This document shows positions 4,263-64,000 of a DNA stretch of 64,000 bases, in pieces; positions within the stretch are counted from its first letter, which is position 1, and each line of letters opens with the position of its first letter. Origin of the DNA: Cytophagaceae bacterium ABcell3. Lineage in GTDB: Bacteria > Bacteroidota > Bacteroidia > Cytophagales > Cytophagaceae. The position numbers and the translations under genes were made by a program. Location: positions 1,262,584 to 1,326,583 of the forward strand of contig CP133159.1 in the NCBI GenBank assembly GCA_030913385.1, given 5' to 3'. The notes beneath the pieces were generated by a model. It searched no databases. It was given only the letters and a program-made list of their open reading frames with translations, and was not told the origin of the DNA.

Positions 4263-6830
4263 TTATCTAATCTGCTGTCCAATAGTAAATGTTACTTGCG
4301 AACGGTCGGTCGTTCTGTCTTGACCAGGCAGATTGTCTAAACGATAACCCCAGTCAAGTCCGATCATACCAAAGGCAGGCATAAATATTCTTGCGCCCAC
4401 ACCAGCAGCACGGTACACATTGAACGGGTTAAAGTTATTAAAATTGTTCCAGGTATTACCTGCTTCAAGGAAACCTACACCAAATAGTGAAAATGCAGGG
4501 CTCAAGTTGATCGGATATCTAAGTTCTGCCACATATTTGGCAAACATAGTACCACCTGCATCTCTTGGAACAGGACCGTCAGGAAGTTCTGGCAATACTT
4601 GGTTGTTTGGATATCCTCTTAGTCCGATAATGTCTGAACCTAATAGGAAGTTGAAACCAGATAGACCATCACCACCCATTACAAACCTTTCAAAAGGAGC
4701 AATACCTGCACTTCTGCTATAGCCGCCGATAAATCCAAAGTGCGCTCTCATGTTTAGTACTAGGTTTCTTTTCTGTCCTGGTATTAGTGTGGTAAACCAA
4801 GAGTTGTCCATAATCCATTTATGATACTCTACCCACCTGTATCTGTCTTCAGGAAGTATAGACTCATCATGATAGTTTATGTTCCTGAATAGCGAGTAAG
4901 GCGGTGTTACTGCTACCTGTAGGGATATATTAGACCCCGATGTCGGGAATGTAAAATCGTTTACACTGTTTCGTGCGATGGTAGTCGTAAAGGTAAAGTT
5001 ATTCGCGACACCATCAGAGAATCCTAACTGAGCAGACTGATAATTACTTAAACGGTACTGCAATAAAGTAATTGAGTTGTTTAATGTAAAGAAGTCATCA
5101 GGCCAGGTAAGGCGTTTCCCAAGACCAATGGTTGCACTGGACACATCAAGGAAACCTGTTGCCCTTCTGGTTTCGGGGTCGATGGTGTTCATCCTAGACT
5201 TGCTCAAGCTTATGTTCAAAGATTGAGGTCGTTTACCTCCCAACCAAGGTTCTGTAAATGACAGAGAGTATGTTTGGAACTGTCTACCACTGGCCTGAAC
5301 CCTAAGCGCCAAACGCTGCCCATCTCCAGAAGGTAGCGGGTTCCATGTTTTAAAGTTGGTGATGTTTCTCATAGAGAAGTTGTTGAACACCAAACCTACG
5401 GTACCTACAGGACCAAACCAGCCACCCCAACCACCAGAGAGTTCTATCTGGTCGCTTGGTTTCTCTACTACATGGTAGTTGATGTCTACCGTACCATCTG
5501 CCGGATTAGGCACTGGGACAATGTTTAGCTGTTCTGGGTCAAAGTATCCTAGCTGTGAAAGTTCTCGTTGCGAACGGATAAGGTCCGACCTACTAAATTT
5601 CTGTCCTGGCAATGTTCGGACTTCCCTTAAAATAACATGGTCATGTGTTTTGGTATTTCCTGACACAGTTACATTTTTAATTGTAGCCTGCTGTCCTTCG
5701 TATACCCGCATCTCTATATCTATGGAGTCGTTTTCTACTCTTACTTCAACAGGTTCTGCATGGAAAAACAGGTAGCCGTCGTCCAAGTAGAGAGAGCTCA
5801 CGTCCCAGCCGTCTGGGTTATACGATAGTCTTCTTTGAAGTTTTTGGAAGTTATAGACATCACCTTTTCTGATGTTCAGGATCGTGTCAAGAACACTGCT
5901 AGGGTGGATGAAGTTACCTGTCCAGGTAATGTTTCTAAAGTAGTACTTGTTACCTTCCTCAATGTTAATGTCAATATTTAGCCTGTTTTCTTCTACTAAA
6001 TATATCGAGTCAGACACGATCTGGGCATCGCGATATCCGAGGGTGTTATAATACTCTATGATCCTCTCTTTATCCGCCTCGTACTCGTTCTTTATTAATT
6101 TAGAAGAAGAGAAGATGTTTCTAAGGTTTCTCTCTTTCGTTTTTTTCATTTGGCGTCTCAGTTTTCTGTCTGAAAGCTGATCAGGGTCAGAAACATTGCC
6201 ATGAAAGTTTATCGAATTGATTTTTACCCTTTGTTTCCTGTCGACGTTAACGGTTAGCACGACATTATTGGGTAGGAGTGAATCTTTTTTCTGAACGATA
6301 TTTACGTCGGCGTTAAAGTATCCTTTTTCAACATAAAAGTTTCTTACTTTTCTACGGGAGTTTTTGATCATGGCGTCGGTTACAATGGCACCGGTGCGCA
6401 ATCCCATCTTCTCTTTTAAGTCGTCGTGGTCTGCTTTTTTTACGCCTGTAATTTCTATCCTAGAAAGTCGTGGTCTTTCTTTAAGGTGGAAGTTTAGGAA
6501 AATTTTGTTGCCTTCAATTCTGGTGGCATTTACCTCTACATCCCCGATTAGTTTCTGATCCCAAAGCTTTCGGATGGCATTACTGAGTTCTTCGCCAGGT
6601 ACCTGTATCACGTCGCCCTCTCTCAATCCTATAATAGACATGAGTGCGTTGTGGTCTAGGTACTCTATTCCTGAGAAGGTGATTTCGCCAATGGCATACT
6701 CTTCAGGATTGGTATAGCTCAAGTTTAAGTCTTTGTTGGACTTTCTTTTGTTAAACCTGATTTGGGCATCGGAAGAATAAAAACTAAAGAAAAAGCCTAG
6801 AATCAGTGTTATAGATAATATTTGTCTCAT
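4263..6830 (-). CDS. bamA: BamA/Omp85 outer-membrane assembly factor
   Basis: 855 residues. Signal peptide ends at about residue 22 (SSDAQ). The N-terminal half carries repeated POTRA domains (motifs such as GEITFSGIEYLD, SRIEITGVKKAD, INSINFHGNVSD, YFRNITWTGNF, TIKNVTVSGNTKT). The C-terminal half is a 16-strand-type barrel with the conserved loop-6 motif GLRGYPNN. It inserts beta-barrel proteins into the outer membrane. Its ATG overlaps the uppS stop by one base and two Skp-like chaperones follow, an arrangement common in Bacteroidota. Confidence 0.95.
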   Translation of the reverse strand: MRQILSITLILGFFFSFYSSDAQIRFNKRKSNKDLNLSYTNPEEYAIGEITFSGIEYLDHNALMSIIGLREGDVIQVPGEELSNAIRKLWDQKLIGDVEVNATRIEGNKIFLNFHLKERPRLSRIEITGVKKADHDDLKEKMGLRTGAIVTDAMIKNSRRKVRNFYVEKGYFNADVNIVQKKDSLLPNNVVLTVNVDRKQRVKINSINFHGNVSDPDQLSDRKLRRQMKKTKERNLRNIFSSSKLIKNEYEADKERIIEYYNTLGYRDAQIVSDSIYLVEENRLNIDINIEEGNKYYFRNITWTGNFIHPSSVLDTILNIRKGDVYNFQKLQRRLSYNPDGWDVSSLYLDDGYLFFHAEPVEVRVENDSIDIEMRVYEGQQATIKNVTVSGNTKTHDHVILREVRTLPGQKFSRSDLIRSQRELSQLGYFDPEQLNIVPVPNPADGTVDINYHVVEKPSDQIELSGGWGGWFGPVGTVGLVFNNFSMRNITNFKTWNPLPSGDGQRLALRVQASGRQFQTYSLSFTEPWLGGKRPQSLNISLSKSRMNTIDPETRRATGFLDVSSATIGLGKRLTWPDDFFTLNNSITLLQYRLSNYQSAQLGFSDGVANNFTFTTTIARNSVNDFTFPTSGSNISLQVAVTPPYSLFRNINYHDESILPEDRYRWVEYHKWIMDNSWFTTLIPGQKRNLVLNMRAHFGFIGGYSRSAGIAPFERFVMGGDGLSGFNFLLGSDIIGLRGYPNNQVLPELPDGPVPRDAGGTMFAKYVAELRYPINLSPAFSLFGVGFLEAGNTWNNFNNFNPFNVYRAAGVGARIFMPAFGMIGLDWGYRLDNLPGQDRTTDRSQVTFTIGQQIR

Positions 6831-52049: not shown

Positions 52050-52471
52050 TTAAGATTTATCAGATAAGCAATCAATGCATTTTCCTTCAGCAAGGAAATG
52101 GATTTGTTTTACTTGGTGTTTGTTTAATTGGTTTAGATAATTCTTGGGTAGTTCCGGAAGCGCAATTATAGTTTCGCATTCTGTACATTTTAGATAGAAC
52201 CTGTTAGGGCTTTGCATGGACGTACTTGTGTTAAAAACATTTTTTTATACACCGTCCGAGTCCATGAGCTTTTTTAATAAACCTGCATTGGTTAGCAAGA
52301 TCATATTTCTATATATTATATGGTAACCCGGTCAGCCAGTTTGTTTAGTAATACTGCCAATTCTGAGTGTGCGTATGACTTACGGTTTAGCATTAAAATC
52401 TTTAGCACTTCTATCCGTAGCTTGGTGACTTTTATCTTTTTGTTTTGAAGTAATTTAACTGCGCTTTCCAT
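52050..52471 (-). pseudogene. Fur/Zur-family metalloregulator, disrupted
   Basis: Two halves of a Fur-type repressor. From the ATG at 52471, 51 codons encode a winged-helix start (KKIKVTKLRIEVLKILML, HSELAVLLNK, LADRVTI) and stop at 52316. Removing a 5-bp ATATA duplication (52311-52321) restores VTIYRNMILLTNAGLLKK. That frame meets a TAA at 52245-52247 and then continues through RFYLKCTECETIIALPELP to FLAEGKCIDC, the CxxC pairs of the metal domain. Repaired length is about 137 residues, normal for Fur. Neighbours suggest it was Zur. The second half alone (52050-52217, from an ATG) could still be made as a 55-residue zinc-ribbon-like peptide. Confidence 0.85.
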
Positions 52472-53903: not shown

Positions 53904-53944
53904 CAAATATAATAAACTTTTTTTAAACGCAACAATGTTGCATG
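53904..53944 (-). promoter_or_regulatory. Promoter and predicted Zur-type operator of the hisI-like gene
   Basis: Operator GCAACAATGTTGC at 53929-53941 (within CGCAACAATGTTGCATG, 16 of 17 identical to the DUF1826 site) followed on the minus strand by TATATTTG (53911-53904). The expected start of transcription is near 53897, leaving about 30 nt of leader before the ATG at 53866. Confidence 0.7.
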
Positions 53945-54024
53945 TAAGTATTGTTTTTGAGATACATTTGGCTCTTTTTTCATGCTATTTATGTTAATCA
54001 TATATAGACATAGAATTAAGAGTT

Positions 54025-54291
54025 ATGAAACGTAAAGTTGAAGTGTTTGTGGCCGGGTGCGCTGTTTGCGAACCGGTAGTGGAATTGGTCAATGAAATGG
54101 CCGCTGACCACTGCGATGTGATTGTTTATGATATAGCAGAGCAATGCGATACAGAGGAATGTGTGCTTAAAGTAAAAGATTATGGTGTTTCTCAAGTACC
54201 AGCCATAGCTGTTGATGGCAAACTTTTGGATTGTTGTGCCAATGTTGAGAAGACGAAAGAAGATTTAATTAAAGCTGGTATTGTAGAATAA
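54025..54291 (+). CDS. Small thioredoxin/glutaredoxin-like protein
   Basis: 88 residues, no signal peptide. Thioredoxin-fold half: VEVFVAGCAVCEPVVELV with the CAVC redox pair (about 12-15), strand DVIVYDIAE, and cis-proline region GVSQVPAIAVDGKLLDCC. Extra cysteines occur at DHC, QCDTEEC and DCC. Similar small proteins accompany metal and arsenic resistance genes. Divergent from the hisI-like gene; ends at a terminator. Confidence 0.75.
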   Translation: MKRKVEVFVAGCAVCEPVVELVNEMAADHCDVIVYDIAEQCDTEECVLKVKDYGVSQVPAIAVDGKLLDCCANVEKTKEDLIKAGIVE

Positions 54292-54318
54292 GGAGCCGGC
54301 AAATAAAGGTTTTTTGTT

Positions 54319-54349
54319 AAAAAAAGCGGGTGTATGGCCCGCTTTTTTA
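54319..54349 (+). terminator. Intrinsic terminator after the thioredoxin-like gene
   Basis: Stem AAAAAGCGGG / CCCGCTTTTT with a TGTATGG loop and a run of T. Confidence 0.88.
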
Positions 54350-54409
54350 CTTTCTAAGTTTTACTGAACTATCTCTTCGAAAGCTGGGTTCATAGTATGT
54401 AACCGAATT

Positions 54410-54787
54410 ATGATGCTCAAGAAAACTTTCCATATCGCCCTTTCGCTCGTACTTTTAGTGACCGTTACAGGTGTAAGTACTGCTAATATGATATGTAATT
54501 TCTCTGCGGAAGACGAAGTTGCATGTTTATCAGAAATTGAAACTAAGGATTGCGCCAGTCAGGAGTGCTGCGAGTTTAGCATAGAGCATAAGAAGCTAGA
54601 GGCTGATCTTTCTGATGAAAAAGAGGAGGCCGAAGCTCCAGAGGTGGTCATTGCTACCGTGCCACTATTTAATGCGGTGCCAGACCTTAAGGTAACTATG
54701 CGCTATAAGTCGCATGGTGAATTGATATACAAAACAGATGCGCAACCTGAAGACATTAATGTCTTGAACCAAAATTTCCGGCTATGA
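54410..54787 (+). CDS. Secreted cysteine-containing protein, unknown
   Basis: 125 residues starting MMLKK (the second ATG at 54413 is equally possible). Signal peptide (FHIALSLVLLVTVTGVSTA) then a Cys cluster (MICNF, VACLSE, KDCASQECCEF) and an acidic stretch (ADLSDEKEEAEAPE). The layout recalls small Bacteroidota exported proteins with a single C and a CC pair (HYC_CC_PP type), but the HYC part is not present, so the assignment is open. Followed by a CC-repeat peptide gene. Confidence 0.65.
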   Translation: MMLKKTFHIALSLVLLVTVTGVSTANMICNFSAEDEVACLSEIETKDCASQECCEFSIEHKKLEADLSDEKEEAEAPEVVIATVPLFNAVPDLKVTMRYKSHGELIYKTDAQPEDINVLNQNFRL

Positions 54788-54793
54788 TAGTTG

Positions 54794-54863
54794 GTCAAAT
54801 AATATAAATCTTGTAAGACAAAGGTTTATAGTGTGGTAATAATTAATATCAACATTATTTGAC
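54794..54863. repeat. Inverted repeat between the two cysteine-rich genes
   Basis: GTCAAATAAT at 54794-54803 and its exact reverse ATTATTTGAC at 54854-54863, 50 bp apart, in the leader of the CC-repeat peptide. Could be paired operator half-sites or a long-range hairpin. Confidence 0.45.
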
Positions 54864-54885
54864 TAAACAATTTAATACTAAGGAA

Positions 54886-55050
54886 ATGAAAAGAAATATT
54901 TTAATAGCCGTTTTCGGACTGTTCTTCGGAACAGCAGCTTTTGCAAGTGTACAATCTTCAGAAATAAACAACGACTGCTGCCAGCCAAAATCTGAGTGCT
55001 GTGAACCTAAAGCAGAATGTTGTGAATATAAAATAACATCAGCTTGCTGA
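54886..55050 (+). CDS. Small secreted CC-repeat peptide, metallothionein-like
   Basis: 54 residues from the ATG at 54886 (MKRNILIAVFGLFFGTAAFA signal); the longer frame has a non-signal extension. The mature part is about 33 residues with CCQPKSE-CCEPKAE-CCEYK, i.e. three CC pairs spaced by five residues, and a final Cys. Seven cysteines in such a short exported peptide suggest metal or thiol binding outside the cytoplasm. A terminator follows. No family recognised. Confidence 0.75.
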   Translation: MKRNILIAVFGLFFGTAAFASVQSSEINNDCCQPKSECCEPKAECCEYKITSAC

Positions 55051-55057
55051 TATAGAA

Positions 55058-55092
55058 GAAAGCCCCGGGATAGCTCTGGGGCTTTTTTGTTT
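55058..55092 (+). terminator. Intrinsic terminator after the CC-repeat gene
   Basis: Stem AGCCCC / GGGGCT (extended by a G-rich/T-C mismatch part), followed by six T, starting 11 bp after the stop codon. Confidence 0.85.
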
Positions 55093-63867: not shown

Positions 63868-64000
63868 GTTAAGCCGGATTATGCAATAGGGTTTATCATG
63901 AGGGGCAAAACAACAAAAAATCAGCGCATTTATGTTGTAAAGCATGCAGCTCTATGGGCTGTTGTTTAGTTACGTGAAAGAAGTTTCTGGTGCATATTTT
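63868..64000. repeat. Small inverted-repeat element, diverged copy D (cut by window end)
   Basis: Begins GTTAAGCCGGATTATGCAAT and keeps the interior blocks ATGAGGGGCAAAAC, AAAAAATCAGCGCATTT, TTGTAAAGCATG; the last bases (GGTGCATATTTT) match the beginning of the right arm. A short TAAGCCGGA at 63841 repeats the element's first bases. Confidence 0.65.

Follow-up and report, generated by a model that had tools for sequence, protein, structure and literature searches.

Gene content of the locus

The window, by which we mean the whole 64,000-nucleotide stretch analysed here, belongs to the genome of Cytophagaceae bacterium ABcell3 (G000) and carries three small cysteine-rich ORFs on the plus strand. 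These proved to be real and to lie where the original prediction had placed them, at 54025 to 54291 (88 aa), 54410 to 54787 (125 aa) and 54886 to 55050 (54 aa). The first encodes a Thioredoxin_3 (MTH895/ArsE-like) protein and appears to be a separate transcription unit; a terminator-like hairpin with a U tract, found by folding, lies between it and the other two genes (54320 to 54348, plus strand). The latter, which we call the pair, are predicted to encode an exported protein that, by profile scores, is a diverged relative of the HYC_CC_PP family (pair gene 1, the partner) and an exported peptide (pair gene 2) supported by profile scores and by its relatives. The CC-x5-CC-x5-CC array of the peptide (C31-C32, C38-C39 and C45-C46), evident in both sequence and alignment, is encoded at 54976 to 55023 (plus strand). 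An intrinsic terminator found by a terminator consensus scan stands 3′ of the peptide gene (55056 to 55088, plus strand), and a similar hairpin, by eye, follows the peptide gene in G005, G011, G015 and G018, four genomes that belong to one genus (g6), and in G079. Start codons, signal peptides (also by hydropathy) and the labels of many neighbours were assigned by eye throughout. An inverted repeat between the pair genes (54794 to 54803 and 54854 to 54863) was set aside, as a 10-bp repeat arose in 96 of 5,000 mononucleotide shuffles; none as long as 10 bp lies between the pair genes of G005, G011 or G018.

The zinc-limitation neighbours

The adjacent minus-strand genes encode a HisI-type protein (PF01502), a DUF1826 protein and a COG0523 GTPase. 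A Zur-box-like palindrome, GCAACAATGTTGC (53929 to 53941), lies in the interval separating the HisI paralog from the thioredoxin-like gene; it precedes the likely HisI start (53896) by 32 bp and the thioredoxin-like gene by 83 bp. The exact sequence occurs at five sites in the genome. One is that in the window; the others adjoin a second COG0523-like gene, a lipoprotein gene that precedes a receptor gene and, in two copies, a LanC-like/export cluster. Copies with one mismatch occupy seven places, two with zinc-type neighbours (DUF1826 in the window; a HupE-like gene and an intact Fur-like gene) and five (2673884, 3316458, 4048012, 4253829 and 4315188) without any by eye. When up to two mismatches are allowed, the genome holds 73 forward matches, whereas the reversed control pattern gives 22 and 31. 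Work on other phyla links Zur to COG0523 and HisI paralogs (PMC2770081) and to DUF1826 (PMC5786701). A Zur regulon is plausible here.

One might therefore read the whole stretch as a zinc-limitation programme in which the peptide handles zinc. The original prediction had placed the three genes beside zinc genes, and the adjacency is correct; the HisI paralog, DUF1826, the COG0523 GTPase and the Zur-type palindromes all adjoin the three genes, and the first three have printed ties to Zur. However, the zinc genes lie on the opposite strand, no copy of the palindrome within two mismatches occurs from 53942 to the window end at 64000, no zinc gene was recognized by eye around the pair in g6, G002 or G079, and a sink would be counterproductive under zinc shortage. 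We consider this reading very unlikely. A zinc sink was rejected as the main reading because the limitation gene set is on the other strand with no palindrome near the pair, and position therefore suggests no zinc role for the peptide.

Two further observations concern this candidate regulon. At 52053 to 52471 (minus strand), the window holds an interrupted Fur/Zur-like gene in two frames (an N-terminal ORF of 51 aa and a C-terminal one of 55 aa), and an intact Fur-like gene occurs elsewhere in the genome (L230); a COG0523 GTPase gene stands beside each, and the two GTPases are 56% identical over 324 residues. Elsewhere in the same genome (C1:3576820-3589475, locus L229), three exact Zur-type palindromes accompany a receptor gene, LanC/LanB-like genes, a small leader peptide of the GG type and an ABC exporter with a peptidase domain (by eye), possibly a peptide natural product cluster under zinc control.

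The thioredoxin-like gene

The cysteines of the 88-aa protein (residues 12, 15, 30, 41, 46, 70 and 71) comprise a CxxC, C30, C41, C46 and CC70-71. The protein scores above the gathering cut-off of PF13192 (27.7 against 24.8 bits) and far below that of TIGR00412 (MTH895/ArsE; 24.1 against 62 bits), and among solved structures it found weak sequence matches only (best 1nho, E 0.0061). The hairpin behind the gene has a 12-bp stem; a 69-nt stretch containing it folds at -21.1 kcal/mol (z -2.40, with 5 of 200 shuffles as stable), and it is absent from the listing of the terminator consensus scan.

The three genes had been predicted to be functionally linked. This did not hold for the thioredoxin-like gene: a search of 98 relatives at E≤0.01 detected it in just two, G000 and G087, and in none of the other genomes that carry the pair (G002, G005, G011, G015 and G018) nor in G079, all of which were searched; it also has its own terminator-like hairpin and belongs to a different family, one associated with metal resistance. 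The trio as one system was accordingly rejected. At E≤1e-10, a two-row profile of the protein had matches in 15 of the 395 genomes searched in the phylum. At 15 of the 17 loci outside the window (L248 to L264), a CsoR-like or MerR-like regulator, or a MerT-like or HMA-like gene, lies within 1.5 kb on either side (by eye). Relatives also stand beside genes for P-type ATPases or beside ars genes. In these loci (L248 to L264), small thioredoxin-like proteins that share a CxxC and a distal CC recur beside CsoR-like or MerR-like regulators and mercury- or copper-type genes. Matches were also found in 26 plasmid records, of which five were inspected: in four (from Oscillatoria, Gloeocapsa and two Hymenobacter) the nearby annotations include metal regulators, transporters or ars genes, and the fifth (Halobacillus) has an adjacent MerR-family gene and a cut P-type ATPase gene at its edge. 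Judged by these relatives, the protein is a member of a family usually found in metal-resistance clusters (mercury, copper and arsenic). It shares with them the CxxC and distal CC but differs in lying beside zinc-limitation genes, with no resistance operon recognized. It would act as a separate cytoplasmic protein, perhaps read from the region of the Zur-type box, and shared control by this candidate box is possible. A possible promoter is TACATTTG (53963 to 53970, plus strand), a single, weak motif match that fits TAnnTTTG, the -7 promoter consensus of Bacteroidota.

Conservation of the pair

The two remaining genes do stay together. Profile A1, built from six partner sequences with that of the window first, matched at E<1e-49 in 6 of the 19 genomes of the family (G000, G002, G005, G011, G015 and G018). 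Members necessarily match a profile built from them; what is informative is that the other 13 have a strong match to neither pair profile. The next-best match (4e-7) is a second gene in G002. At E≤0.1, 11 of the 19 matched, the weak ones (G007, G012, G016, G006 and G009) at 1.5e-4 to 0.05, and those in G006, G007 and G009 are by eye canonical-looking HYC_CC_PP genes. In all six pair genomes the partner homolog lies upstream of the peptide homolog on the same strand, with gaps of 98 (G000), 160 (G005), 175 (G011), 154 (G018), 178 (G015) and 106 bp (G002). The pair spans 3 of 10 genera, and four of the six genomes belong to one genus, so that independent cases are few. The original interpretation was supported in that the exported CC-repeat peptide has relatives beyond the strain and retains a neighbour, and in G002 the pair sits among metal genes (by eye an ATPase fragment, HMA and 'YTCPMHP' proteins). 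No efflux gene was recognized by eye near the pair in the window or within about 10 kb on each side in the four g6 genomes.

Looser arrangements also occur. In G079, outside the family, a CC-x5-CC-x5-CC peptide is preceded at 23 bp by an exported CC protein of 117 aa, and this neighbour did not match HYC_CC_PP. G001, of the same family, was missed by both pair profiles; at L008:1273-2447 (minus strand) it has in a row an HYC_CC_PP-like gene (22.0 bits against the NCBIfam model, below its cut-off, and 29.1 bits against A4, a profile of 14 canonical HYC_CC_PP rows), an HMA-like lipoprotein gene and a gene for a 123-aa exported CC-rich protein.

The CC-array peptide

The peptide appears in the ORF list as 63 aa, from an upstream TTG, and was taken as 54 aa. 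Its N terminus is hydrophobic and ends in AFA, leaving, from residue 21, a mature part of 34 residues with seven cysteines arranged as CC-x5-CC-x5-CC-x7-C. Shuffling of these 34 residues yielded CC-x5-CC-x5-CC in 22 of 200,000 cases (1.1e-4); a CC triple with equal spacing of whatever length arose in about 0.12%. Among stop-terminated ATG ORFs of at least 30 aa in the 64-kb window, it is the sole one with two CC pairs 3 to 7 residues apart. No Pfam or NCBIfam model scored above cut-off for the peptide, the sole Pfam match being AppA_SCHIC (E 0.2, below cut-off); Pfam holds metallothionein models. A search of the open-licence literature, which is weak evidence, returned no title naming the peptide or the pair.

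When 98 relatives were searched with the peptide, 31 matched at E≤1, and only five besides G000 fell below 1e-3. The peptide profile (A2) matched 12 genomes, which within the family were the same six as for the partner; a separate search matched five genomes, namely G000 (the window itself), G477, G527, G759 and G665. Five of the six pair genomes keep the array; in the G002 homolog it is lost and the signal region retained. Three more genomes of the order (G079, G164 and G044) carry the array without an HYC_CC_PP-type partner, none being found in the flanks examined in G164 and G044. Other matches were discarded on reading: those of A2 in G036, G353 and G239 depend solely on the signal region, in a signal-bearing protein without any CC, and those in G527, G759 and G665 are other proteins or frames. 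Spread by plasmids was likewise discarded, a plasmid collection having given no match at E≤1. G477 encodes a small exported peptide containing a single CC-x5-CC, possibly a distant relative, whose neighbours are by eye of non-metal types.

A further reading is that the peptide is an inert or near-neutral low-complexity product of which only the signal peptide is conserved. That the array is gone in G002 while the signal region is kept, and that G036, G353 and G239 matched through the signal region alone, would fit such a product. Against it, the window peptide scored 32.3 bits with a profile built from the four g6 peptides, a score that none of 999 shuffles of its mature part reached (maximum, 28.1), nor any of 999 shuffles of its signal part (maximum, 29.1). 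Over the whole peptide, dN/dS is well below 1 in g6 (dN 0.04 to 0.08 and dS 0.46 to 1.02 among the four genomes). The partner gave dN 0.06 to 0.09 and dS 0.42 to 0.46 among three g6 genomes (G005 was excluded for its different length), and both pair genes are under purifying selection in this one genus. The six array cysteines are invariant in seven aligned peptides, a set chosen for keeping the array. We regard an inert product as having only a slight chance.

The partner and the HYC_CC_PP family

The 125-aa protein has a hydrophobic N terminus, with cysteines at 29, 39 and 48 and a CC at 53-54. It scored 59.7 bits against a profile of five homologs (999 shuffles of the post-signal part, maximum 25.5). 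A Pfam scan matched no family, its profile found no match among solved structures, and the NCBIfam model HYC_CC_PP (NF047658, cut-off 28 bits) gave no match at E≤10. Two of its homologs do exceed that cut-off, those of G005 (37.6 bits) and G002 (32.0 bits), at loci L002 and L009, and the comparison of A1 with A4 aligned 121 columns with a probability of 98.0 and an E value of 1.4e-13. On this profile-level match, the partner is a diverged HYC_CC_PP relative, outside the curated cut-off. The original prediction knew of no described system of this composition; the middle gene does have known relatives. Like HYC_CC_PP proteins, the partner is small, exported and from Bacteroidota, with a CC close to its centre and a conserved L-x-Q-x-F at the C-terminal end. 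The canonical invariants are, in the numbering of the first of 14 rows, H25, C27, C46, CC65-66 and PP118-119; the window partner has C29 and CC53-54 but lacks the HY before the first cysteine and the PP, and it accompanies a CC-array peptide rather than CusA/HMA genes.

HYC_CC_PP itself is common, 255 of 390 genomes in the order having a match over the cut-off, and no paper was found under this name in the open-licence literature. The canonical copy of G000 (C1:3925644-3926039) has an HMA-like gene on one side and, on the other, one gene further, a CusA-like pump and an outer-membrane factor; in G005 and G015 the canonical genes lie in operons with CusA-like, outer-membrane-factor and HMA genes (all by eye). 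Because the canonical HYC_CC_PP of these three genomes sits in Cus-type operons, the partner would be diverged kin of a copper/silver-type efflux companion. In the best 30 canonical loci (1.5-kb flanks, ATG ORFs of 30 to 249 aa), no CC-x5-CC peptide was found, and pairing with the peptide therefore seems to be a feature of the diverged branch.

A possible role in the envelope

We propose, with about an even chance of being right, that the pair is a two-gene exported unit that binds a soft, Cu(I)-like metal in the envelope, the thioredoxin-like gene being separate. A metal buffer in the envelope is the best reading because the peptide is short, exported, thiol-rich and under selection, because its partner is kin to a Cus-operon protein and because the G002 pair lies in a metal cluster. 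The region from 54410 to 55050 would be co-transcribed up to the terminator, and both products would be exported by Sec. In the periplasm, the peptide would offer neighbouring thiol pairs with a seven-residue period to soft thiophilic ions, and the partner, as a paralog of the Cus-operon HYC_CC_PP protein, may help to load, hold or hand over the metal. Cu(I) or Ag(I) is the most likely ligand, given the Cus link of the partner family; other metals or As(III) are possible. Several points count against a soft-metal pair, namely, the lack of an efflux neighbour recognizable by eye in the window and g6, the loss of the array in G002, the failure of the window partner to match HYC_CC_PP and its lack of the HY and PP residues, the absence of this partner type from the flanks examined in G164 and G044, the G079 neighbour that does not match the family and the concentration of four of the six genomes in one genus.

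The periplasm is also oxidizing, so that the cysteines of the peptide could be disulphides, which speaks against metal binding. Alternatively, the peptide might be a secreted, disulphide-stabilized product (toxin-like, signalling or surface) that binds no metal, with the partner as its folding or immunity protein. In favour of this, the peptide is small, exported and cysteine-rich and has a conserved partner gene. However, the even seven-residue spacing of the CC pairs, with stretches rich in Lys, Glu and Gln between them, is unlike a knotted fold, the g6 forms carry 18 cysteines and the partner is related to a Cus-operon protein. Nor was any processing, transport or modification gene recognized beside the pair, except an EamA-like transporter gene after the pair in g6 (by eye). 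We think this alternative quite unlikely.

The proposed metal binding by the pair invites comparison with known thiol-based systems. Bufferins (Buf1/Buf2) are described as MNIO-modified exported copper-binding peptides (PMC12452194), and the window peptide resembles them as a short, Sec-exported, cysteine-rich product of a short gene unit and a proposed periplasmic metal sink. Identity with the bufferins was rejected: the MNIO enzyme (PF05114) was found in none of seven genomes (the pair genomes and G079), with 2 of 14 control genomes positive, and no bufferin precursor model such as DUF2282 (PF10048) matched the peptide. The bacterial metallothioneins SmtA and MymT, as treated in PMC7558416, are similarly very short and cysteine-rich with no large fold expected, but the window peptide differs in its probable export, its seven-residue CC period and its lack of a model match above cut-off. 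Csp1, in the same account a Tat-exported four-helix bundle, is like the proposed unit an exported thiol-based Cu(I) store, although the peptide is far too short for such a bundle.

A bolder view, which we offer tentatively and think rather doubtful, is that the pair represents a new class of unmodified, Sec-exported metallothionein system, in which a heptad-spaced dithiol peptide would be kept reduced and loaded in the periplasm by its partner without a modifying enzyme, the same spacing being reused in arsenic operons. The exported thiol-rich metal sinks known to us are the enzyme-modified bufferins and Csp1, compared with which a short, unmodified peptide served by a partner of its own would be simpler in design. 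If the pair does bind metal, it would give HYC_CC_PP proteins, with their wide distribution in the order, a first testable role.

CC arrays elsewhere and the arsenic connection

A scan of named genomes for CC-x4-[DE]-CC-x4-[DE]-CC returned at least 120 stretches, 80 of which were examined as loci. Among the matches listed, 73 of the 80 loci have the array in an open frame, 30 of them with an upstream ATG, and eight, from several phyla, encode short proteins (≤160 aa) with a hydrophobic start. No ATG ORF of at least 60 aa in the 80 loci listed matched the HYC_CC_PP-type profiles at E≤1. The spacing probably recurs across phyla by convergence, and the CC pattern alone was rejected as evidence, since many of the remaining matches listed look like chance frames or repeats. 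Short exported CC-x5-array peptides were seen at L079, L109, L110, L113, L144, L112, L095 and L090 (Victivallales, Planctomycetes, Pyrinomonadaceae, Bacteroidales and others); the flanks examined there yielded no HYC_CC_PP-type gene.

The window array might chiefly be an arsenite or antimonite trap, cysteine pairs being able to bind As(III), with the thioredoxin-like gene a remnant of the same response. As(III) is favoured by two settings. In G164 (L065:994-2313), the array peptide has, by eye, an ECF sigma-factor-like gene on one side and, on the other, a DUF6428-like gene with a cysteine-rich tail. In three Bacteroidetes/Chitinophagales records, a 31-aa peptide (CC-x5-CC-x5-CC-x3-CC) is encoded between ArsR-like and ArsM-like genes (by eye) at L081:5245-5340 (minus strand), L099:1571-1666 (plus strand) and L126 (match at 4616 to 4663, plus strand). 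An ArsM-like frame in L270 ends in CC-x5-CC, and the sole order-level relative found for the thioredoxin-like gene, that of G087, lies near ArsR-like, ACR3-like and phosphatase-like genes (by eye). However, no ars gene was recognized in the stretches around the pair in the window, g6, G002 or G079, and the 31-aa peptide has no signal, went unmatched in 198 genomes sampled from the phylum (a search that had no positive control) and may be convergent. An arsenic trap in the window is on balance unlikely. The 31-aa peptide itself, judged from its gene neighbours, looks like a minimal cytoplasmic arsenic-binding peptide.
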